Source: Candidatus Zhuqueibacterota bacterium
GTDB taxonomy: Bacteria; Zhuqueibacterota; Zhuqueibacteria; Zhuqueibacterales; Zhuqueibacteraceae
Direction of reading: 5' to 3'
Length of the DNA stretch: 64,000 bases
Assembly: GCA_022616415.1 (NCBI GenBank)
Contig: JAKEEU010000031.1
Span: 1 to 64,000 of the forward strand
Translations under genes and position numbers: made by a program
Notes under the pieces: generated by a model
The model's input: the letters and a program-made list of their open reading frames with translations, nothing else
Database searches by the model: none
What the model was told of the DNA's origin: nothing
In this document: positions 50,074 to 60,338 of the stretch, one piece after another
Position numbering within the stretch: position 1 is the stretch's first letter
Layout: every line of letters begins with the position of its first letter

Positions 50074-51413
50074 TACTTTTTCCGAAAACTAAGCGTGAGT
50101 GGCACGCCCGCAAATCCGAAGCGGGCGCGGAAACGGTTTTCCAAATATTGCCGGTAATTCGCCCGAATCGCAGTCGGGTGATTGCAAAAAAAAGCGATCA
50201 CCGGCGGCGCGTGCTTGACTTGCGTGCAGTATTTGATCTTGACTTCGCGCTGCTCCATCGACGGCGGCGGGTAGTTGCGAACGGCCTCTTGCAGAAACTC
50301 ATTCAAATCTGCCGTGCGCAATTGTTTTTGCCGCTCGCGATGCACCGTCAGCGCCACGTCGAGCAATTTGAACACGCGCTGCTTGGTGACCGCCGAAATA
50401 AACAATATAGGCACATAACTGTAAATGCGCAACGCCTCGCGCAGCTCTTTTTCAAGCCCTTTCGCGGTCAAGGCATCTTTCTCGATGAGATCCCATTTGT
50501 TGACGCCGATGATGAGGCCTTTTTGCAATTTAGCCGCTTCGCTGACGATGTGCAAATCCTGATCGACCGCCTGCTCGAGTGCATCGAACAACACAATCGC
50601 AACATCGCAGCGGCGAATACTATCGCGCGTGCGCACCGTGCTGTAAAACTCAATCGACTCTTTGACCCGCGAGGTTTTGCGCAAGCCGGCGGTGTCGATG
50701 AGCACGATCTCCTGCTCTTTGTAACGCAAGCGTGTGTCAATTGCATCCCGCGTCGTTCCCGGAATAGCGGTGACGATCACTTGCTCGTGCCCAAGCACGG
50801 CGTTGACCAAAGAAGACTTGCCAACATTGGGCCGGCCGATCACCGCCAAGCGCAGCGTCTCGACTGGCTCGCTTTTGTCTTCCTCATCAATGCTCGGCTG
50901 GCGTTTTGCCGAAGCCGGCAGTAGTGCCACGAGGCGATCCAGAAAATCACCTATTTGCCGGCCGCTCGCGGCGGAAATCGACACGGGATCACCGAGGCCG
51001 AGATTATAGAAATCCGCCAGCCCCGGCTCGTGTTGCGTATCGTCGATCTTGTTAACCGCCAACAACAATTTTTTCTCGCTGCGGCGCAGAATGCGCGCGA
51101 TCTCCGCGTCCGTCGCCGTCACACCGGTTTGCGCATCCACCACGAAGATCACCGCTTCCGCCTCCTCGATGGCGTCGTACACCTGCCGGAGCACGGCCTG
51201 GTCGATTATATTTTGGCTGTCGCTAAAATAGCCGCCGGTATCCATGAGCGTAAACTCGTAGCCCACCCAATCCGCTTCCGCATAATTGCGGTCGCGCGTC
51301 ACGCCCGGCGTCTCGTGCACAATCGCCTCGCGCTTGCGAATGATGCGGTTGAACAAGGTCGACTTGCCGACATTAGGCCGGCCAATGATGGCGACGAGGG
51401 GTTTCTTTTTCAT
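50073..51413 (-). CDS. der: Ribosome biogenesis GTPase Der
   Basis: 446 residues with two tandem G domains: GRPNVGKSTLFNRI with DTGGYF, NKID; and GRPNVGKSSLVNAV with DTAGLRK, NKWD; then the KH-like C-terminal domain. Der acts in 50S assembly. Its start overlaps the stop of the retropepsin-like gene upstream by 4 bases, so the housekeeping gene is transcriptionally coupled to the accessory array. Confidence 0.97.
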   Translation of the reverse strand: MKKKPLVAIIGRPNVGKSTLFNRIIRKREAIVHETPGVTRDRNYAEADWVGYEFTLMDTGGYFSDSQNIIDQAVLRQVYDAIEEAEAVIFVVDAQTGVTATDAEIARILRRSEKKLLLAVNKIDDTQHEPGLADFYNLGLGDPVSISAASGRQIGDFLDRLVALLPASAKRQPSIDEEDKSEPVETLRLAVIGRPNVGKSSLVNAVLGHEQVIVTAIPGTTRDAIDTRLRYKEQEIVLIDTAGLRKTSRVKESIEFYSTVRTRDSIRRCDVAIVLFDALEQAVDQDLHIVSEAAKLQKGLIIGVNKWDLIEKDALTAKGLEKELREALRIYSYVPILFISAVTKQRVFKLLDVALTVHRERQKQLRTADLNEFLQEAVRNYPPPSMEQREVKIKYCTQVKHAPPVIAFFCNHPTAIRANYRQYLENRFRARFGFAGVPLTLSFRKK

Positions 51414-52288
51414 GAGGATGCTGCAAGGATTTTCGTCGTGCGATTGCCACCATCTAATTCGATACGCAATGGAAGCTCATATAATAAATTGCGGCCAACC
51501 AAAGCTTTGCGGACAGGGTTGACTAAACAGAGCGGACTTTGCTGCCAGTCGCGAATGCAAATAGCGGACATAATTCTCGAGATTACTTTCCCAGTCTCAT
51601 CAGCTATCGCGACTTGAACCGGTAAAACATAGCATTTATATGGTAGTCCAAAGTGTTTGCCAGACTCCGTCTCTTTGCCATATTGGTTCTCAAGTATATT
51701 TTTACTACGCATCAGGCTATAATCCAACATTATGTTTCCTGAGCCTGTATCAAGGTCGGCATCAAACTTGAGGCCTCTCTTCATGATGTCCTCCTGATTC
51801 CAATTTTCCGCACCAAACGCTATCGAAAGGCTCGGATAAAAATCATTATCAGCAACCGCAGCCCAATAAGATTCTTCAATTACAGGATTTGCAATAAAGG
51901 TCCATGGTGCATACCCCATCTGTCTGCCTATCGCATGTCTTTTTTCACGAGAGGGATAGTCATCAAGTGTTGGTGACCATTCAATGATTTCCCCTTTACA
52001 AATTAGCATCCATCTCGCGCGACGCTTGGCAAGCTCATGGTAAATCCAATCACGATATTTTTCATAAGCCATGAGCTTTAATTCTTCTCCTTCCTCGTCG
52101 GAGAGGGCAAGATAATCCTCGAAAGAAATCAAATACTTCTCATCCTCGAGCAAAGTTTTGGGGGATGTAGAAACTTTGGGTTTGTGCTTTTCGCGTGTTA
52201 GTTGCTTTTCAACAACCTCAAGCTCTTCGGGACGCAGCTTGCCCAAAGTCTTAAGAACTTGTTCAAGACCTGTTTCGGCGATAATCAT
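51410..52288 (-). CDS. Retropepsin-like family protein, full-length paralogue P1
   Basis: 292 residues, two parts. Residues 1-155 form the shared N-terminal module: LEQVLKTLGKLRPEELEVVE, ISFEDYLALSDEEGEE, a KYRDWIYHELAKRRARWMLI helix-strand segment, the EWSPTLDDYPSREK stretch and ANPVIEES. Residues 170-285 look like a clan-AA aspartic protease: ADLDTGSGNIML with D180-T-G-S and, 80 residues later, ALVGRNLLYELPLRIELDG, as in retropepsin-type domains where G-R-D/N follows two hydrophobics. One DTG per chain implies a dimer. AAGGAGGTC precedes ATG 52288 and overlaps the tail of copy P2. Function unknown; the protease assignment is motif-based. Confidence 0.7.
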   Translation of the reverse strand: MIIAETGLEQVLKTLGKLRPEELEVVEKQLTREKHKPKVSTSPKTLLEDEKYLISFEDYLALSDEEGEELKLMAYEKYRDWIYHELAKRRARWMLICKGEIIEWSPTLDDYPSREKRHAIGRQMGYAPWTFIANPVIEESYWAAVADNDFYPSLSIAFGAENWNQEDIMKRGLKFDADLDTGSGNIMLDYSLMRSKNILENQYGKETESGKHFGLPYKCYVLPVQVAIADETGKVISRIMSAICIRDWQQSPLCLVNPVRKALVGRNLLYELPLRIELDGGNRTTKILAASS

Positions 52289-52761
52289 GTCGACCTCCTT
52301 ATATCAGGGTAAAAGTCGTTTTTCGGAAGCGCAGCCCATGAGGATTCTTCAATAACTGGATTGGCAACAAAGACAAAGGGAACCCGATCGAATTGACGAC
52401 CGATCTTATAAAGTTTATCTCGTGAAGGATATTCATCTAGCGTTTCACCAGTTTCAATAACATCTCCACCGACTACGAGCATCCATTCTGCCTCACGACG
52501 TTCCAATTCTTCATCGATCCAAGCTCGATATTTTGAGTAGGCAGAGATATGGATGGAATCCCGCTCATCATCCGTTAATGCCAGATACTCATCAAATGAA
52601 ATCTTGAAGATCACGTCATCCAGCGATGTTGCAGGCAAAATTTGGGGAGACTTTTTAATCGACTTTTCAAGTAGCCGCTCCCGAATAATTTCACGGCCTT
52701 CTGGTGGCAATGCTTCAATTGTTTGCCAGATTTGCTCGACATCTGTTTCGACGATGGACAT
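52285..52761 (-). CDS. Truncated paralogue P2, N-terminal module only
   Basis: 158 residues matching P1 and P4 up to ANPVIEESSWAALPKNDFYP, where the protease part would begin; it then ends in DIRRST, coded by the sequence that also serves as the ribosome-binding site of P1. The module (ISFDEYLALTDDERDSIHIS, KYRAWIDEELERREAEWMLV, ETGETLDEYPSRDK) is intact and without stops, so it may act alone or regulate the full-length forms; it could equally be decaying. ATG 52761. Confidence 0.65.
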   Translation of the reverse strand: MSIVETDVEQIWQTIEALPPEGREIIRERLLEKSIKKSPQILPATSLDDVIFKISFDEYLALTDDERDSIHISAYSKYRAWIDEELERREAEWMLVVGGDVIETGETLDEYPSRDKLYKIGRQFDRVPFVFVANPVIEESSWAALPKNDFYPDIRRST

Positions 52762-52784
52762 AAATGCCTCATAAGAATTAAAAG

Positions 52785-53225
52785 TTAAACAATAGCCGCC
52801 CTCTGCGACTCTTCAATAAGTGGATTCGCCATAAAGACAAACGGCGCGTAACCGGATTGCATGCCTATAGCCTCCATTTTCTCATCTGAGGGGTAATCGT
52901 TAAGCTTTGGAGACCATTCAAGAATTTTTCCGCCACATACAAGCATCCATCGCGCCTGGAGCCGTGCGAGTTCTTCGTCAATCCAACTGCGGTATTTGCC
53001 ATACCCATAAAGTTGGATGTTGTCACGCGCGTCGTCCGAGAGCGCAAGATAATCTTCAAAAGGCATTAAAAACGTTTCGTCATCAACCAGTGTCTTGGGC
53101 GGAAAGGAACGCCGGCTGTGTTTTTTCAAATTCGCAATGTGTTCTTCAACCAACCAAAGCTCATCCGGACGTAATTTGTCCAACGTCTGTAAAATTTCTT
53201 CAAGGTCGATTTTGACTCTCATCAT
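52785..53225 (-). CDS. Truncated paralogue P3, N-terminal module only
   Basis: 146 residues from ATG 53225, chosen because GGAGG lies 5 bases before it; ATG 53237 is upstream of that site. The module matches P1 closely: LEEILQTLDKLRPDELWLVE, MPFEDYLALSDDARDNIQLY, SWIDEELARLQARWMLVCGG, EWSPKLNDYPSDEK, and it stops after NPLIEESQRAAIV, a few residues before the truncation point of P2. No protease part follows. First gene of the P3-P2-P1-der run. Confidence 0.65.
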   Translation of the reverse strand: MMRVKIDLEEILQTLDKLRPDELWLVEEHIANLKKHSRRSFPPKTLVDDETFLMPFEDYLALSDDARDNIQLYGYGKYRSWIDEELARLQARWMLVCGGKILEWSPKLNDYPSDEKMEAIGMQSGYAPFVFMANPLIEESQRAAIV

Positions 53226-53271
53226 CTTGACCTCCATAACTTAGACAAGCCGGAACCAAATAGAATTTTCC

Positions 53272-53330
53272 CCAACGGATGAATTAAGACCAACTGATGC
53301 TTTATCCGTTGGTCTTAATTCATCCGTTGG
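53272..53330. terminator. Perfect 23-base-pair inverted repeat upstream of the paralogue array
   Basis: The arm 53272-53294 (starts CCAACGGATGAATTAAGACC) is exactly complementary to 53308-53330, with a 13-base loop TGATGCTTTATCC. It lies between the Nudix gene stop (53342) and P3. On the minus strand it is followed by TGGGGAAAATTC, not a T run, so it could be a rho-independent-like hairpin without tail, or a small palindromic element. Confidence 0.55.
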
Positions 53331-53341
53331 AGCCCCTTTGA

Positions 53342-53803
53342 TTACCGTCTTATATCGTAGTCACTTTCCACCGCTTGCCGAACTGCCCAAGCCTGGCTCT
53401 GGCGGCAAAGTTGTTTGACAGCTTCCTCCGCTGTTAGCCAAACCAGCACATGATGATCATCGACCGGCTCGCGTACCCGCTGCCCGAAGCTTGCCGCGTA
53501 GAAATGGCCGTGTACTTCGAAATATCTCTGACCTATTTCCGACCAAAAGCACTCTGTCGCTTCTCCGAGCTTGCGGTGGATTTGGATGTCATAACCGCTT
53601 TCTTCAAGCACTTCACGTTGGAGCGTCTCTTCCATTGTCTCACTTGGCTCAGCGCCGCCACCGAGCAGGAAATAATAGCCGTATCTGTTCTTGACGACGG
53701 CCACGCGTTGGCCAGCATCGAACACGACCGCATAAGCGCCGGGACGACGCGTATAGTTATTTCCCGCGAGGCGCTCGCCAAATTGCGGCAATGCGGTATT
53801 CAA
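53342..53803 (-). CDS. Nudix hydrolase
   Basis: 153 residues with a full Nudix box, G-x5-E-x7-R-E-x2-EE-x-G: GGAEPSETMEETLQREVLEE then SGYDI at about 48-72. The rest (YFEVHGHFYAASFGQRVREP) is typical of small MutT-like proteins. Substrate cannot be predicted. Nudix enzymes occur near TIR and NAD-consuming systems, but here that is only proximity. Confidence 0.88.
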   Translation of the reverse strand: MNTALPQFGERLAGNNYTRRPGAYAVVFDAGQRVAVVKNRYGYYFLLGGGAEPSETMEETLQREVLEESGYDIQIHRKLGEATECFWSEIGQRYFEVHGHFYAASFGQRVREPVDDHHVLVWLTAEEAVKQLCRQSQAWAVRQAVESDYDIRR

Positions 53804-53850
53804 ACGTTCCTCAATACATAAGTCATGGTTAGCCTACCTACTACTACGAT

Positions 53851-54468
53851 TTATAAAGGACCAAGATGAAGAAATCCGTCTCGGTCGTAACGATCCAGCA
53901 ATTTATCCAGCAAGTCAAGTTTGATCTCCACATCAGAAAAATACCGTTCCTTTGCGACGATCAAATCGTCATGAAAGTCTCCGGCATTCAATATTATTTG
54001 CCCATTGCTGTCGTTCTTCAAATGAAGACCTGGGTTATTGTGCGTGAGAGCATATTTCTTGTTCTTGATGGTAAACATATGAACAAGGCCGTTGCGGAGG
54101 CTATCGTATAGCCCACTTGCGTCATATCGACCCTTTGGAAAATATTCATCTATGAAGCTGGTGTAGGCGGTTTCGACTTTCCCCTTTGTACTCGTTCCCC
54201 ACCAAAACCCAGCCAGGTAGTCAATAGCACACGTCATGAAAATAAACCCAATGAGCGCATCTTGTGTGTGAACAAGTCGGTTGATTGGTCCAATAACCCA
54301 ATCATCGAAATGCGGCCAGAAATAATTACAAAACCAAGCGAGCTTTTGTGAATGCGGTGAAATAGAGCTAATAAGAATTGGTGATACGGGCGATCCGCTT
54401 GGTGAAGATAATGAACCGCCAGATTCTGGCAGTTTTAGTATTGAGCCAACTGAAGGCGTCGTGCCCAT
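53851..54468 (-). CDS. HEPN-like protein with RxxxxH motif
   Basis: 205 residues. After a Ser/Pro-rich, probably disordered first 40 residues come helices (ALIGFIFMTCAIDYLAGFWW), then YDSLRNGLVHMFTIKNKKYA. R125-N-G-L-V-H130 fits the Rx4H catalytic motif of HEPN ribonucleases. The C-terminal part is helical (VEIKLDLLDKLLDRYDRDGF). The gene is 63 bases downstream of the TIR-nuclease gene on the same strand, so the two may be one defence-type operon. I do not know an annotated family for it. Confidence 0.6.
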   Translation of the reverse strand: MGTTPSVGSILKLPESGGSLSSPSGSPVSPILISSISPHSQKLAWFCNYFWPHFDDWVIGPINRLVHTQDALIGFIFMTCAIDYLAGFWWGTSTKGKVETAYTSFIDEYFPKGRYDASGLYDSLRNGLVHMFTIKNKKYALTHNNPGLHLKNDSNGQIILNAGDFHDDLIVAKERYFSDVEIKLDLLDKLLDRYDRDGFLHLGPL

Positions 54469-54531
54469 GTTTATTCTCCTCTATGTGCCGTACTATCATT
54501 TATGGTGATATGCTAGCGTTTTACTAGAAAT

Positions 54532-55893
54532 TCATAATAGTATTTCATGGATACGAAGATAAATATTACCTGTTTGAGCGGCGTGGCGTCGTTTTCTCAA
54601 TAGAAGCTGAATCAAGTCTATCCGTCCCTCAAGAACAGCCATCAAGTCGCTACCGTCCATTAAAATCATCAAGCGTCTACCCGATGAGTGTGTTTTAACA
54701 GCATCTTCGGAAAAGCTGTTAATCGACAAGAACAGGCCAAGCGTGTTATCGAGTTTTCTTGAAAGTTTTCCCGCAAAATGGTCAAGTTCGTCTGCTCCAA
54801 CCGGCTGTTGCTGCCACTTTGCTTCAAAGAGATAATCAGTGCTGTCAAAAGTAAAGGCACCGTCGATTTGTTCTCCAACAATTTTAAATGAAGCTTTAGG
54901 ATCTAGATCAAAAAGAGAAAAAAGTTCGTTTATAATTCTTTCCAATTTATAACCTCGTCCTTGAGGATCTTCCGAACTCAGCAACAAATAATATTCTTGA
55001 GTTAGTCTCTCAAGTTTTTCTTTGACCGCAGTAGTTCGTAAAAGCGCCTCATAAGTCGCACGCCGTCGTTCCTCTATTTTCTTTTGTTCAGTGTGCAATT
55101 CTTCATGAATGGCAACGAGTTTCCTAAGTGCTTCGACTGAAGCCTTTGCCTGCCTAGCCTTTTCCTGACCGTCTTCCAAACGGACCAAATGACTGAAATC
55201 GTCAATTAGAGCCACCTCACTCATGAGTCTCAGTAAGTCCGTTAGATACTCGTCCTGATGAGTAGCCAAAGTATCAACTACTGTTGTGACAATATTTCGT
55301 TTATAATCGTTCCAGTTTAGTCGTGTCAAAATCGCGGGATTACCCAAAGTAGTTGTTAGAAAGCTTCTTAGGTCGGCTTTATACCAATAGATGTTGGTAA
55401 GTGCCTCCTTTAAGGCCACGATAGCTGCAGGTGCTATTCTTTTAGGCATAAAGCTATACTCCTGAGAGTTTAATTGATCTAACGTACCTCTTAAAACAGC
55501 CTTACAAATTTGTTGTGCTACATATTTAATGCCACGGCTAGTAGAGACAGCTACTCTATCTGCAAGAGTCGGAGAATGGTGCCTAACTTCTTCTATGGTA
55601 ATATTATGCCATATTGGTAAAATGACTTTTTCGCCGACACTTTCTTTTGCTATGAGTCCATCAAGTTCCTTTTTCGGCCATTCTTTTCTAAAAAACGCGG
55701 TGCTAAGAATTACCAATCCAAACTTAGATTCTGACAATCCTTTATCAATGCTTCGACGGAGGCTGTCGCCAATCGTTAATTCGAAGTCATCAAACCATAC
55801 TTTAAGACCAAATCTCTTTAATTCCATGACCAGTGGATTTACTACCTCGGGCTTATCTTCGCTGGCATGGCATATAAAAACGTCATATCTCAT
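54532..55893 (-). CDS. TIR domain protein with C-terminal PD-(D/E)XK nuclease-like domain
   Basis: 453 residues. TIR domain at 1-135: YDVFICHASEDKPEVVNPLV, LKVWFDDFELTIGDSLRRSI, with the NADase-type catalytic Glu E76 in EWPKKELDGL. A helical middle (150-305: ALTNIYWYKADLRSFLTTTL, coiled-coil to 300) leads to a restriction-endonuclease-like domain with D344 in GEQIDGAF and E357-x-K359 in DYLFEAKW. TIR plus REase architecture recalls anti-phage proteins that sense infection and then deplete NAD or cut nucleic acid; activity here is not shown. Lower GC than the neighbours and located amid repeat-bounded cargo suggest transfer. Confidence 0.82.
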   Translation of the reverse strand: MRYDVFICHASEDKPEVVNPLVMELKRFGLKVWFDDFELTIGDSLRRSIDKGLSESKFGLVILSTAFFRKEWPKKELDGLIAKESVGEKVILPIWHNITIEEVRHHSPTLADRVAVSTSRGIKYVAQQICKAVLRGTLDQLNSQEYSFMPKRIAPAAIVALKEALTNIYWYKADLRSFLTTTLGNPAILTRLNWNDYKRNIVTTVVDTLATHQDEYLTDLLRLMSEVALIDDFSHLVRLEDGQEKARQAKASVEALRKLVAIHEELHTEQKKIEERRRATYEALLRTTAVKEKLERLTQEYYLLLSSEDPQGRGYKLERIINELFSLFDLDPKASFKIVGEQIDGAFTFDSTDYLFEAKWQQQPVGADELDHFAGKLSRKLDNTLGLFLSINSFSEDAVKTHSSGRRLMILMDGSDLMAVLEGRIDLIQLLLRKRRHAAQTGNIYLRIHEILL

Positions 55894-55951
55894 ATAATTT
55901 TTTCAATTGAAGGATACAAACATGGAGAATCATGATAATTTCACCATTGAC

Positions 55952-56119
55952 CTAACTTGAAATCTCCGGCTCTGCCTCAAAACTTTTAACCGTCTCAACC
56001 GCCGAAATTCTCCCAAACTTCAAAAACTCGAAAATCCCGCCAAAATCATTCTTCAATGGCACGACCGGCACGCCGAGCTTGTCTTGCATCTCGGTGAGCT
56101 TCCAATCGTCGAGAAAAAC
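55952..56119 (-). repeat. DUF512-gene 3'-end direct repeat, copy 3
   Basis: Encodes DDWKLTEMQDKLGVPVVPLK then NDFGGIFEFLKFGRISAVET and ends SFEAEPEISS stop (55952), the same C-terminal tail as the DUF512 gene at 58869. Homology ends near 56119, nine bases before the stop of the deacetylase-like gene (56129). No start codon: it is a tail without a gene. Confidence 0.85.
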
Positions 56120-56128
56120 ATCATGCTC

Positions 56129-57253
56129 TCATGCCTGCAAGAAACGCTTGCCGGCCTCGGCGATCGTGAGATATTCGATGCTGTCTTTCATCGCGTCGTG
56201 CTGCTCGACATACTCCAGCGCTTCGATCACCCGTTCAATATGTCCCAAAATCCGGCCGAATCGTGAGTCGCCGCCGGATTCAAGATGAAACCCGAGACTG
56301 AGATAAACTTCGGAGTTTTGTTGCGTGGCTAGCTCCATCGCCCGATGTATTTGTTCTTTCATATAATCGGCCTGAACATAGTCCGCCAGAATGGCGGTAT
56401 CGGGAATTTCGAGCAGTCTTTGAATCTTCCTCGGTTGCGCGGCAGTAACATCGTTTGCATGATCGTAAACATTGATCCCGCTGGGATAAGCCGATAGAAA
56501 AAGACGATTGGCCAAATAGGATGCTTCCGTCTGTTTTTTCGGTCCCCAAAGTTGAGCAAGCCAGTCATGCATCGTACCGCCGCCATTGGCAAAAAAGGAA
56601 GCATCCACCGCGGAAGCTTCGTATTGAAATAAGGGCTCAACCATTTGAACCGCAGCCAGAACTAAGTCGTTGGCCATCCAACCGCCACAGCGAAAGCTGA
56701 CACAATCGCCGCTGGATTGAATGATTTTATTTTCCACTAACAACACCCGGCATCTTTCCACCACCTGCTGGATTTCCTCTTGGCGGTATACTCCCAAGGG
56801 CACGCCATGACCATAATCGATTTTCTCTTCACCCGCATCATTCCGGTAAGGCACACACAGGCCATACCGGTTATTCTCTTGGGCTCCCCAATCAGGAATC
56901 GAGTGATCCCGCACCGGATCTTTTAGCGCGACGCCACAGACACGCATTAAGCTTATCCAGCAGTGAATATGTAATCCTATTTCACAGTTGCTTTCTTGAA
57001 CGAGTTGAGCGGTTTTGCCGGCATAATATTCCGCCAGCAAGTGGCTGCGCGTAAAGTAAACCGGACAAATGAAATGCGTTACAGGAATGCGATCCGCAAA
57101 TTTCCTATTGAAATACTTAATGGCCTGAATGCCACGATCAAAGCGAAAATGCGGCGAACCTGCCGGATTGTACGATTCATTTAAAGGATAGTCCAGACCA
57201 TCCCAATCGCACGTGACCGTGATAATCACCTTTCCATGTTTAGCTGGCAACAT
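56129..57253 (-). CDS. Polysaccharide deacetylase-like (NodB-like fold) protein
   Basis: 374 residues from ATG 57253. The start VTCDWDGLDYPLNESYNPAG and later FRFDRGIQAIKYFNRKFADR, VTHFICPVYFTRSHLLAEYY, EIGLHIHCWISLMRV, SFRCGGWMANDLVLA fit a divergent CE4 (NodB-homology) fold with D-W-D and H-x-H metal sites. The first 17 codons of the longer frame (from 57304) are tail copy 2, so the natural 5' end may have been lost or replaced; a GTG at 57229 is another candidate. Its stop lies nine bases before copy 3. Role unknown; deacetylases of this type modify surface polysaccharide. Confidence 0.7.
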   Translation of the reverse strand: MLPAKHGKVIITVTCDWDGLDYPLNESYNPAGSPHFRFDRGIQAIKYFNRKFADRIPVTHFICPVYFTRSHLLAEYYAGKTAQLVQESNCEIGLHIHCWISLMRVCGVALKDPVRDHSIPDWGAQENNRYGLCVPYRNDAGEEKIDYGHGVPLGVYRQEEIQQVVERCRVLLVENKIIQSSGDCVSFRCGGWMANDLVLAAVQMVEPLFQYEASAVDASFFANGGGTMHDWLAQLWGPKKQTEASYLANRLFLSAYPSGINVYDHANDVTAAQPRKIQRLLEIPDTAILADYVQADYMKEQIHRAMELATQQNSEVYLSLGFHLESGGDSRFGRILGHIERVIEALEYVEQHDAMKDSIEYLTIAEAGKRFLQA

Positions 57254-57445
57254 CCGGCTCCGCCTCAAAACTTTTAACCTCCTCAAAAGCCGCAACTCTC
57301 CCAAACTTCAAAAACTCAAAAATGCCGCTAAAATCATTCTTCAACGGCACGACCGGCACGCCGAGCCTTTCCTGCATCTCGGTGAGCTTCCAATCATCGA
57401 GGAAAATCTGCTTGTCGTTCAGGCAGCTTTTCGGCAGGAAAACCG
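57240..57445 (-). repeat. DUF512-gene 3'-end direct repeat, copy 2
   Basis: Reads VFLPKSCLNDKQIFLDDWKL, TEMQERLGVPVVPLKNDFSG and IFEFLKFGRVAAFEEVKSFE, ending EAEPDVAS stop at 57240. It begins next to the TAA of the VapC remnant (57448). Nucleotide similarity to the DUF512 3' end is obvious through the whole 206 bases. Confidence 0.88.
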
Positions 57446-57447
57446 CC

Positions 57448-57510
57448 TTATTCAAAAGGATTGAACAACTGAATATCACAATCATCGAAATCACGGGCAT
57501 TTCGCGAGCG
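57448..57510 (-). pseudogene. C-terminal remnant of a VapC (PIN) toxin
   Basis: The frame 57510-57448 reads RSRNARDFDDCDIQLFNPFE stop. The pattern TRN-x2-DF-x3-G/C-x2-x-x-NP-F/W is the very end of PIN-domain VapC toxins, including the last conserved Asp. Nothing of the preceding 110 or so residues remains; the antitoxin gene stops 15 bases upstream. The toxin was deleted except for its last 20 codons. Confidence 0.6.
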
Positions 57511-57525
57511 TCAGATAAAGATACT

Positions 57526-57807
57526 TCATTCGGCTATCTCGAGCATGGCGTTGGGTCGATCCCGGTGGGTTGGCGCCTCAATCTCGACAGGTTCAGACTT
57601 GTGGATTTCACGCAACTCATCCAGAAGCTCGGCAATGGTCGGTCGAGCTTGGCGGGCGCGAAGATTCATCAGTTGATTAAAAAGGTTGACGTCAACTACG
57701 ACGCTAACGGGTTTATTTTGCTCGTAAACGATTTGTGGCTCCTGCAAAGACGCGCGCACGATCTCCGCAAAGCGGTCTTTCACATCAGTTACAGTCGAAG
57801 TTCTCAT
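57526..57807 (-). CDS. Phd/YefM family antitoxin (orphan)
   Basis: 93 residues from ATG 57807 (RTSTVTDVKDRFAEIVRASL), then EPQIVYEQNKPVSVVVDVNL, the classical Phd fold with its dimerisation strands; the C-terminal half (RPTIAELLDELREI) is the toxin-binding helix. The toxin normally follows, but only a 20-codon VapC end is left, so this antitoxin is probably orphaned or protects against a toxin encoded elsewhere. The start codon was chosen over an ATG at 57822 because of the family start. Confidence 0.8.
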   Translation of the reverse strand: MRTSTVTDVKDRFAEIVRASLQEPQIVYEQNKPVSVVVDVNLFNQLMNLRARQARPTIAELLDELREIHKSEPVEIEAPTHRDRPNAMLEIAE

Positions 57808-57935
57808 AAGCACACCTCGCACTTTTGGTTATTCGCAATTACGTCTATCCGATTAAGCGGATGTCAACAAGAATATAATCAAACCTTCGGAGAACTTCAA
57901 GTTTCGCCAGATCAAGATGAAAGTTCTTGAGACAA

Positions 57936-58847
57936 TCAGTCGTCGAGTATTTGAGTCACTCTTCTTCGACCATCCAATTTAATCTGCAACTCCAGTTTTA
58001 TGCGCGTGTTCCGACCAACTAAAGCCTGGCGAGAGGGATTCGGCAAACGAAAGGGGCTTTTTACCCAACGGCGCACACAAAGTACATTGATGACCTCGGA
58101 AATCAATTTACCACCTTCGGTAATAACTCCCATTAAAACTGGCAGAGGGTAGTAGTCAAAAGGGTGCCCCAAATGAAAGCGGGTATTAAAACGAACGAGC
58201 CGCTGGCGTTTAACGATGCTCTGTTCCAACAATTGTTCATAATTCAGCAGAACATCAGGTGAACCAGTATCAAAATCAGCATGGATTGCTAAACCATTGT
58301 CAACGAGATCATGCGGAGACTGTTCTTTGTTGGCAACAATGATTGGAAGGCTTGGATAAAAATTATTGTAAGAAAGAGCTGCCCAATCCGATTCCTCAAT
58401 CATCGGGGCAGCCGCAAAGACAAAGGGGATCAAGCCATATTGCTCGCCAATCGCCTGCAATTTTTCATCTGTTGGGTAATTTTCCCAAGTCGGGCCAGAT
58501 TCAATAACTTTTCTGCCACAAACCAATATCCATTTGGCGTGATGCAGCTTTAGCATTTGATCAATCCAATCCAGATGATTTGCATACGCCTCTTCCTGAA
58601 TCGCGTCACGCTCTTCATCCGACATGGCCAGATATTCGTCAAATGTGATAGCAAAAATATCACGTGTGGCCGCTGGCAAAGCCGGAATCTGCGCGCCGCC
58701 CGAAAGGCTACGCCCGTCGGGGGCTTTTGAGCCGTTTTTCTTTTTCCGAGCCGAAGCGAGACGCTTTTCTATAAGATCAAGCTCGTCGGGGGCGAAATCA
58801 TCGATTGTTTCCAAAACCTGATCGAGGGTCGAATTTTTAGTTTCCAT
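57936..58847 (-). CDS. Retropepsin-like family protein, full-length paralogue P4
   Basis: 303 residues, the second full-length member. The N-terminal module has the same landmarks (LDQVLETIDDFAPDELDLIE, ITFDEYLAMSDEERDAIQEE, MLKLHHAKWILVCGRKVI, GPTWENYPTDEK, APMIEESDWAALSYNNFYPS) with an extra Ser/Gly/Pro linker at 36-60. The second part has HADFDTGSPDVLLNYEQL with D193-T-G-S and QALVGRNTRIKLELQIKLDG with VGRN at 277-280. Cysteines C110 and C257 are present. Adjacent to the orphan antitoxin and the DUF512 gene. P1 and P4 differ enough to be old duplicates. Function unknown. Confidence 0.7.
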   Translation of the reverse strand: METKNSTLDQVLETIDDFAPDELDLIEKRLASARKKKNGSKAPDGRSLSGGAQIPALPAATRDIFAITFDEYLAMSDEERDAIQEEAYANHLDWIDQMLKLHHAKWILVCGRKVIESGPTWENYPTDEKLQAIGEQYGLIPFVFAAAPMIEESDWAALSYNNFYPSLPIIVANKEQSPHDLVDNGLAIHADFDTGSPDVLLNYEQLLEQSIVKRQRLVRFNTRFHLGHPFDYYPLPVLMGVITEGGKLISEVINVLCVRRWVKSPFRLPNPSRQALVGRNTRIKLELQIKLDGRRRVTQILDD

Positions 58848-58868
58848 AACGGCCTCGTTTTAATATGG

Positions 58869-59076
58869 TTAATTTTGGAGATCGAATTCAACTTCCAAAG
58901 CCTTTGCTGTCTCAAAAGCCGAAATTCTTCCAAATTTCAAAAACTCAAAAATGCCGCTAAAATCATTCTTCAACGGCACGACCGGCACGCCGAGCTTGTC
59001 TTGCATCTCGGTGAGCTGCCAATCATCGAGAAAAATCTGCTTGTCGTTCAGGCAGCTTTTCGGCAGGAAAACCGCT
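58869..59076 (-). repeat. DUF512-gene 3'-end direct repeat, copy 1 (in the intact gene)
   Basis: The intact gene end: VFLPKSCLNDKQIFLDDWQL, TEMQDKLGVPVVPLKNDFSG, IFEFLKFGRISAFETAKALE and VEFDLQN. Copies 2 and 3 share the first parts almost unchanged and differ mainly in the last ten codons. Confidence 0.88.
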
Positions 59077-60215
59077 GCGCCGAGATCGCGCTCTTTCAGC
59101 GCCGCGAAAATATCCTGGCCCGTGAGCAAACCGGACACGCGGATCGTGTCGCCGTAGAACTTGTTGACGATGGTGATCAACTCCGGATCAAAATTTTTGA
59201 TCTGCCGCAAGCGCGGCAGAATGTGTTCGGCGAGAAAGCCGCCAGCCAAAGTCGCGGTCACGAGCGTGACTTTGGTTGGCTGCCGCAAACGTTTCGAAAG
59301 GCGCGCGGCTTGCTTATCATTGAAATCATCCAACAAATCACGCAGCATGCCGACGCCGTTTTCCATTTGCTCAAAAGCATCGTAGCGGCTCGCCGGCGGA
59401 ATCGGCTCTTCGGCCATGATGTAAAATTCATCGGAAGGATAAACGAAATGCGTTCCCAAACGCTGGCGAAACTCGGCGGCGTAATCGTCGGCGATGCGCA
59501 AAAACTGCTGCACATAAGCTTTCGTCACCGGCTTGATCGGCGTCAAGCCTTCGCGGTGCTTGGTCAAACCGACCGGCACGACGGCGACGCTGCGGAGGTG
59601 CGGGTAAAATCCGGCGAGATCCGAGAGCGTTTTGCGCAACACTTCGCCGTCATTAATTTCCGGACAAAGCACGATCTGCGTGTGCAGCTCGATGCCGTTT
59701 TGCGTGAGATAAGTGAATTTATCCAACAACCGGTCGTCGAATTTGATGCCGAGTAGAAATTGGCGCACCGCCGGTTCCGTAGCATGCACGGAAATAAACA
59801 ACGGCGTCAGCCGCTGGCGCACGATGCGCTCCAAATCGGCGCGCGACATGTTGCTGAGCGTGACGTAATGCCCGGAAAGAAACGACAACCGAAAATCCTC
59901 GTCGCGAAAATACATCGTCGAGCGCATGCCGGCCGGATTTTGATCGACGAAGCAAAAGATGCAATCGTTGCCGCAGCGGCGGATTTTCAGCGGCGCGAAA
60001 TTCACGCCGAGGCTGTCGTCAGTATCCTTTTCAATATCAAAAATAATATGCTCATCGCCATGACGGATTTCCATTTCAATCGCATCTTCGGCGGTGAGAA
60101 AGCGGTAATCGAGAATATCGCGCACCGGCTCGCCATTGATGCGCAGCACTTCGTCGCCTGGACACAGGCCTAGCTCGTGCCCGGTGCTGTTGTGGTCAAT
60201 TGTGATAATTTTCAC
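58869..60215 (-). CDS. DUF512 family PDZ/radical-SAM-like protein
   Basis: 448 residues from GTG 60215, where the PDZ-like start KIITIDHNSTGHELGLCPGD begins; upstream codons to 60287 lie in the GTCATTGCGAG repeat. Cysteines C81, C85, C88 (RRCGNDCIFCFVDQNP) fit a radical SAM 4Fe-4S site (CxxxCxxC), with SFLSGHYVTLSNM following as in this family, and the DUF512 domain fills the C-terminal half. The exact reaction is not known to me. Its last 68 codons (58869-59076) are the sequence repeated downstream as copies 2 and 3. Confidence 0.85.
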   Translation of the reverse strand: MKIITIDHNSTGHELGLCPGDEVLRINGEPVRDILDYRFLTAEDAIEMEIRHGDEHIIFDIEKDTDDSLGVNFAPLKIRRCGNDCIFCFVDQNPAGMRSTMYFRDEDFRLSFLSGHYVTLSNMSRADLERIVRQRLTPLFISVHATEPAVRQFLLGIKFDDRLLDKFTYLTQNGIELHTQIVLCPEINDGEVLRKTLSDLAGFYPHLRSVAVVPVGLTKHREGLTPIKPVTKAYVQQFLRIADDYAAEFRQRLGTHFVYPSDEFYIMAEEPIPPASRYDAFEQMENGVGMLRDLLDDFNDKQAARLSKRLRQPTKVTLVTATLAGGFLAEHILPRLRQIKNFDPELITIVNKFYGDTIRVSGLLTGQDIFAALKERDLGAAVFLPKSCLNDKQIFLDDWQLTEMQDKLGVPVVPLKNDFSGIFEFLKFGRISAFETAKALEVEFDLQN

Positions 60216-60257
60216 TGGGACTCGAAAATTGTATAACTTTAGCAGTCCGAAGAAGCC

Positions 60258-60338
60258 GTCATTGCGAGGCGTTTTTTGCCGAAGCAATCTTATACGCCCT
60301 CTCGAGAGATTGCTTCACTAGAAAACGCTCGCAATGAC
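60258..60338. repeat. GTCATTGCGAG-type interspersed inverted repeat
   Basis: GTCATTGCGAG (60258-60268) and its complement CTCGCAATGAC (60328-60338) bound an inner pair AAGCAATCT / AGATTGCTT (60282-60290, 60307-60315). This is the widespread GTCATTGCGAG...GCAATCTC element of many bacterial genomes. It lies between the DUF2268-like gene and the DUF512 gene start. Confidence 0.75.

Follow-up and report, generated by a model that had tools for sequence, protein, structure and literature searches.

A predicted TIR, EAD-like and Mrr-type nuclease protein encoded in an accessory insert next to der

The stretch of DNA analysed, hereafter the window, is 64,000 nt long, and all coordinates of the locus are positions within it. 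A first-pass annotation made from the sequence alone had described two neighbouring minus-strand ORFs, one joining a TIR domain to a PD-(D/E)XK nuclease domain and the other HEPN-like, and had read them as a mobile defence locus. Both ORFs, here called P0001 and P0002, are present on that strand; their features and those of the surrounding insert are listed in Table 1.

Table 1. Features of the P0001 locus and of the insert that carries it
Feature	Position	Strand	Basis
P0001	54532-55893	-	ORF, 453 aa
TIR domain, aa 1-133 of P0001	55495..55893	-	Pfam TIR_2, AbTIR structures; W72 and catalytic-position E76
Linker, aa 134-148 of P0001	55450..55494	-	Sequence; AGGAG 9 nt before M149
EAD8/EAD1-like helical domain, aa ~149-238 of P0001	55180..55449	-	Pfam on family members, AF2 helices
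Coiled-coil-like long helices, aa ~242-306 of P0001	54975..55170	-	AF2 model H94-137, H140-158
Mrr-type PD-(D/E)XK nuclease, aa ~310-453 of P0001	54535..54966	-	Pfam Mrr_cat, fold match, conserved E318/D344/E357-A-K359
P0002, HEPN-like candidate, 205 aa, R125-N-G-L-V-H130	53851..54468	-	ORF, motif, Arcobacter relative
Accessory insert, 7.45 kb, between DUF512 and der	51414..58868		DUF512-der spacing in relatives
DUF512 3' end, truncated copy upstream of P0001	55961..56128	-	75% protein identity to aa 415-470
DUF512 3' end, second truncated copy	57249..57455	-	80% protein identity to aa 402-470

The N-terminal part of P0001 matched Pfam TIR_2 above the cut-off (E 4.7e-19), and the nearest solved structures were those of AbTIR and its relatives (7uwg/8g83, E~1e-41), with which W72 and E76 of the W-x3-E motif align, bearing out the earlier claim of a TIR domain with an intact E76. 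PADLOC profiles close to this domain were ThsB (PDLC00417, 5.8e-36), RT-TIR (RT-TIR_XII, 1.6e-15) and PDC-S66, and the nearest TIRs in the same class were the C-terminal TIRs of retron-XII-like RT-TIR proteins (54-58% identical). Judged by sequence, the domain is an AbTIR/retron-XII-type NADase module with intact catalytic residues and a predicted activity. AbTIR-type TIRs make cyclic ADPR isomers, which, together with the closeness to the ThsB, RT-TIR and PDC-S66 profiles, favours a Thoeris-like signalling within one chain, in which the TIR would be the sensor or signal maker and the nuclease the sole killer, or the reverse; however, neither the nuclease half nor the remaining insert genes that were scanned showed a recognisable ADPR-signal-binding domain, and we regard this arrangement as quite improbable.

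Residues 149-453 of P0001 belong to a widespread family of stand-alone proteins of about 305 aa that are annotated as "restriction endonuclease". A total of 523 relatives were detected in a scan of genome contigs, and the best 80 of these, which were analysed more closely, come from many phyla and are roughly 44-70% identical to P0001 over the matched part. The C-terminus of P0001 matched Mrr_cat (E 2e-6, 28.4 bits vs the curated cut-off of 21), and among 60 sequences, with relatives 36-70% identical, D344 and E357 are invariant, E318 is invariant or nearly so and K359 is retained in at least 90% (P0001 numbering), in agreement with the nuclease residues D344 and E357-x-K359 named earlier. An AlphaFold (AF2) model built from the family sequences (pLDDT 88) began with several helices, followed by a coiled coil and then a PD-(D/E)XK domain; in a fold search that left out the EAD-like part, the nuclease matched BspD6I (Z 11.3, 156 residues, 3.5 A), FokI (9.4) and the modification-dependent enzyme MspJI (7.8). 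On sequence and model together, the C-terminal domain is an Mrr-type PD-(D/E)XK nuclease predicted to cut DNA.

Between the two catalytic domains lies a small region, fused to the effector and modelled by AF2 as all-helical (mean pLDDT of blocks 82-97). Of 25 family members compared with Pfam, 15 matched EAD8 in this region (best 1e-5) and 10 matched EAD1. The copy in the window scored below the Pfam gathering cut-offs (EAD8 17.2 vs 27 bits; EAD1 15.7 vs 24.2), and the domain is therefore named only EAD-like. A profile search built on the family found no other credible copy of this adaptor in the genome. The earlier view of P0001 as one protein with both a TIR and a PD-(D/E)XK nuclease was thus right as to the domain pair, both domains being matched, but it had overlooked the EAD8/EAD1-like adaptor between them and the commonness of the nuclease half as a stand-alone protein. 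The 2023 PADLOC library contains no strong match for the EAD-like/Mrr family. Qat, SMEK, GmrSD, AbiJ or type I R genes are neighbours of some stand-alone relatives, and plasmid-borne copies exist, one of which adjoins Qat genes. This large single-gene family, with more than 500 relatives, merits anti-phage testing.

Full-length searches of 875 genomes (82 of the phylum of the window, 398 of the phylum of a Dyella genome and 395 of that of a Dyadobacter genome) recovered the TIR and nuclease halves only as separate proteins, the window excepted, so the fusion is rare, and the fused form is known from one genome only. Searching with the window's own TIR gave no TIR fusion among the best 80 of the 523 nuclease relatives. 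A TIR scan of viral contigs was negative, and in the literature, searched with hyphenated terms only, nothing relevant to a named TIR-REase fusion turned up. Met149 of P0001, which aligns with the start codons of the stand-alone relatives, is preceded by AGGAG at a distance of 9 nt; the ATG of the fused ORF lacks such a site; a Shine-Dalgarno sequence precedes the start of 9 of 25 stand-alone relatives, so that the one before Met149 is good but is not a hallmark of the family. Since this site is retained, a nuclease-only form may also be produced from P0001.

The internal start and the lack of fused relatives in the 80 nearest loci and the 875 genomes speak for a chance read-through, the main rival to a working fusion: the stop codon of an unrelated TIR gene would have been lost recently, joining it to a stand-alone nuclease, with a product made mainly from Met149 and a TIR without function. 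We think this rather unlikely, as the TIR has kept its catalytic residues, the frame is open through the 15-codon linker, and in a second genome of the same family (G077) the nuclease likewise has a TIR-like gene ahead of it. There, a nuclease gene 46% identical starts 23 nt behind a gene of 314 aa, the N-terminus of which matches TIR_2 weakly (E 0.0076).

DUF512, der and the next gene occur in a common order in ten relatives. The spacing between DUF512 and der is below 430 bp in eight of them and 7,455 bp in the window, while in G075 and G076, the two that remain, it is 1.4 and 1.9 kb, and the site holds another insert with an AAA_15 ATPase resembling AriA/GajA/ATPase-Toprim proteins. The ATPase in this gap is OLD/AriA-like and has 322 aa (L142 2109-3077; L148 6780-7748), and it is followed at both loci by a short, apparently truncated partner ORF. 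The GC content of the two genes is 0.41/0.44 (P0001 0.41) and that of the insert 0.45, vs 0.53-0.56 in two flanking core genes. The second truncated DUF512 copy has 95% DNA identity over 165 nt, and the truncated 3'-end copies suggest earlier insertions. By synteny, the other ATPase insert, the DUF512 copies and the low GC, the locus is thus an acquired one, and the gap beside der is a variable site that has taken up insertions more than once. The mobile defence locus proposed earlier is supported by the synteny, with the 7.45-kb insert and the ATPase found there in two relatives, and the composition is indeed atypical; "repeat-bounded" holds on one side, where the DUF512 3'-end copies lie, but not on the other, where there are none. 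As for homologues lying apart at core positions, which had been named as counter-evidence, the halves do occur apart, though in defence or mobile contexts rather than at demonstrable core positions.

Several further features of the region were recorded. The DUF512 (TIGR03279) 3' end occurs three times in tandem (55961-56128, 57249-57455 and 58869-60287), and the truncated copies each adjoin different accessory cargo, as if insertions had repeatedly used or carried the gene end. Between the two truncated copies, a 391-aa ORF (56129-57304, minus strand) without a Pfam match has, by eye only, a polysaccharide-deacetylase-type look. Four related ORFs of 150-303 aa, two of them short, flank the locus (51410-53237 and 57936-58847); no significant Pfam match was obtained for this group, and the two long ORFs contain D-T-G-S like aspartyl proteases. 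A near-perfect 27-nt inverted repeat with a 5-nt loop (53272-53330) lies between the paralogue cluster and a NUDIX gene. No integrase was recognised among the insert ORFs scanned. Contamination, put at 8% in this genome, was rejected for this contig, in which DUF512 and der are 83-84% identical to those of a genome of the same genus.

P0002 sits 63 nt downstream of P0001 on the same strand, and GAGGAG precedes its ATG. R125 and H130, as the first-pass annotation had given the motif, were confirmed by number, and so was N126. An R-x4-H motif alone is weak evidence, because it occurred in 20% of shuffled P0002 copies; R-N-x3-H occurred in 0.9%. No match to P0002 was found in Pfam, NCBIfam or PADLOC, HEPN profiles included, or by sequence in the PDB, and its single-sequence AF2 model was mostly helical and unreliable (pLDDT 43). 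Viral contigs, genome contigs, phages, plasmids and the phylum genomes yielded a single relative, on an Arcobacter plasmid, which is weak (28% over 138 aa) and keeps the motif position (RCGLVH vs RNGLVH, two sequences only); it lies near a HEPN/Toprim gene. The HEPN-like label thus remains plausible by R-N-x3-H, but gained no profile match and had a poor model, and P0002 is perhaps a HEPN RNase.

The strand, the spacing and the strong Shine-Dalgarno of P0002 would suit a two-gene system, in which the TIR-REase effector works with a HEPN RNase or a HEPN regulatory partner, and R-N-x3-H proteins do adjoin some nuclease relatives (e.g., L007, L014 and L042). At L007 (5053-6474, a Chryseobacterium plasmid), the nuclease relative is followed by two small R-N-x3-H (HEPN-like) proteins, which differ from each other. 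However, the adjoining proteins are different ones, and the motif shows no excess at +-1 genes (9/151) over +-3 (10/124); an enrichment specific to the nuclease neighbours was dropped, the rate being about three times that of shuffled sequences at +-1 but also at +-3. No relative of P0002 was found beside a nuclease relative, none was detected at E<=0.01 in 45 nuclease-bearing genomes (a search of low power, without a positive control), and no TIR-REase is annotated near the Arcobacter relative. With this one relative of P0002, a conserved pair could not be put together; by the sequences at hand the P0001-P0002 pair is not conserved, the functional TIR-REase/HEPN system proposed at first was not supported, and we consider a two-gene system highly unlikely. 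P0002 is probably a separate passenger.

What the comparisons establish at the sequence level is an acquired gene, inserted at a variable site, with the domain make-up of Table 1, intact catalytic residues and a nuclease half from a stand-alone family. With moderate confidence, we propose that P0001 is a horizontally acquired effector of immunity that arose when a TIR NADase module was placed ahead of an existing single-gene EAD-like/coiled-coil/Mrr defence protein, giving a dual-effector abortive infection protein. Upon a phage trigger, the EAD-like adaptor and coiled coil would assemble P0001 with itself or with a further partner, as no second adaptor copy was found in the genome; assembly would activate the TIR (NAD+ cleavage) and the nuclease (DNA cleavage) together, and their joint action would lead to abortive infection. 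This dual-effector reading draws on the TIR match with its W-x3-E, the nuclease fold with conserved E318/D344/E357/K359, the EAD8/EAD1 signal across the family with the published role of EADs, the split TIR-like gene ahead of the G077 nuclease gene, the defence genes beside some relatives and the hotspot with its defence-like ATPase. The sub-cut-off EAD scores in the window, the failure to find a second protein with this adaptor in the genome, the weak G077 TIR match and the occurrence of the fused form in one genome only count against it. A stricter version, which we consider unlikely, is that NAD+ depletion and DNA cleavage kill independently of each other although both activities sit in the same polypeptide on a single death-domain-like adaptor, and that an internal start yields a nuclease-only form as well. 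If it is true, a single trigger would fire two effectors from one chain, and phages would have to block both. P0001 also illustrates how immune effectors come to be built: an adaptor-nuclease gene that was already complete, and that is successful by itself, has gained a TIR.

Among known systems, the stand-alone EAD-like/Mrr family shares with P0001 up to 70% identity over aa 149-453, the same start Met and the same catalytic residues, and differs in having no fused TIR in the best 80 of 523. The W-x3-E TIR is shared with type XII retron RT-TIR proteins, some of them in the same class, and with AbTIR/BtpA/TcpB; the retron has a reverse transcriptase, whereas P0001 has none and carries its TIR N-terminally, followed by adaptor and nuclease. 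The Thoeris ThsB profile matches the P0001 TIR, but no ThsA-like partner (SIR2/SLOG protein) is among the insert ORFs scanned, and the locus is thus not assigned to Thoeris. According to a published proposal, EADs act as adaptors, linking TIR, REase and other effectors with immune cores by like-with-like contacts (PMC7159879, PMC8195603). The EAD-coupled effectors of MoxR-vWA/VMAP ternary systems resemble P0001 in the small helical adaptor on a TIR or REase, whereas P0001 has two effectors on one adaptor and no second EAD copy was found; a MoxR-vWA-VMAP core was not seen in the insert. By this comparison, the principle behind the predicted architecture of P0001 is already covered by the published EAD-coupled TIR and REase effectors.
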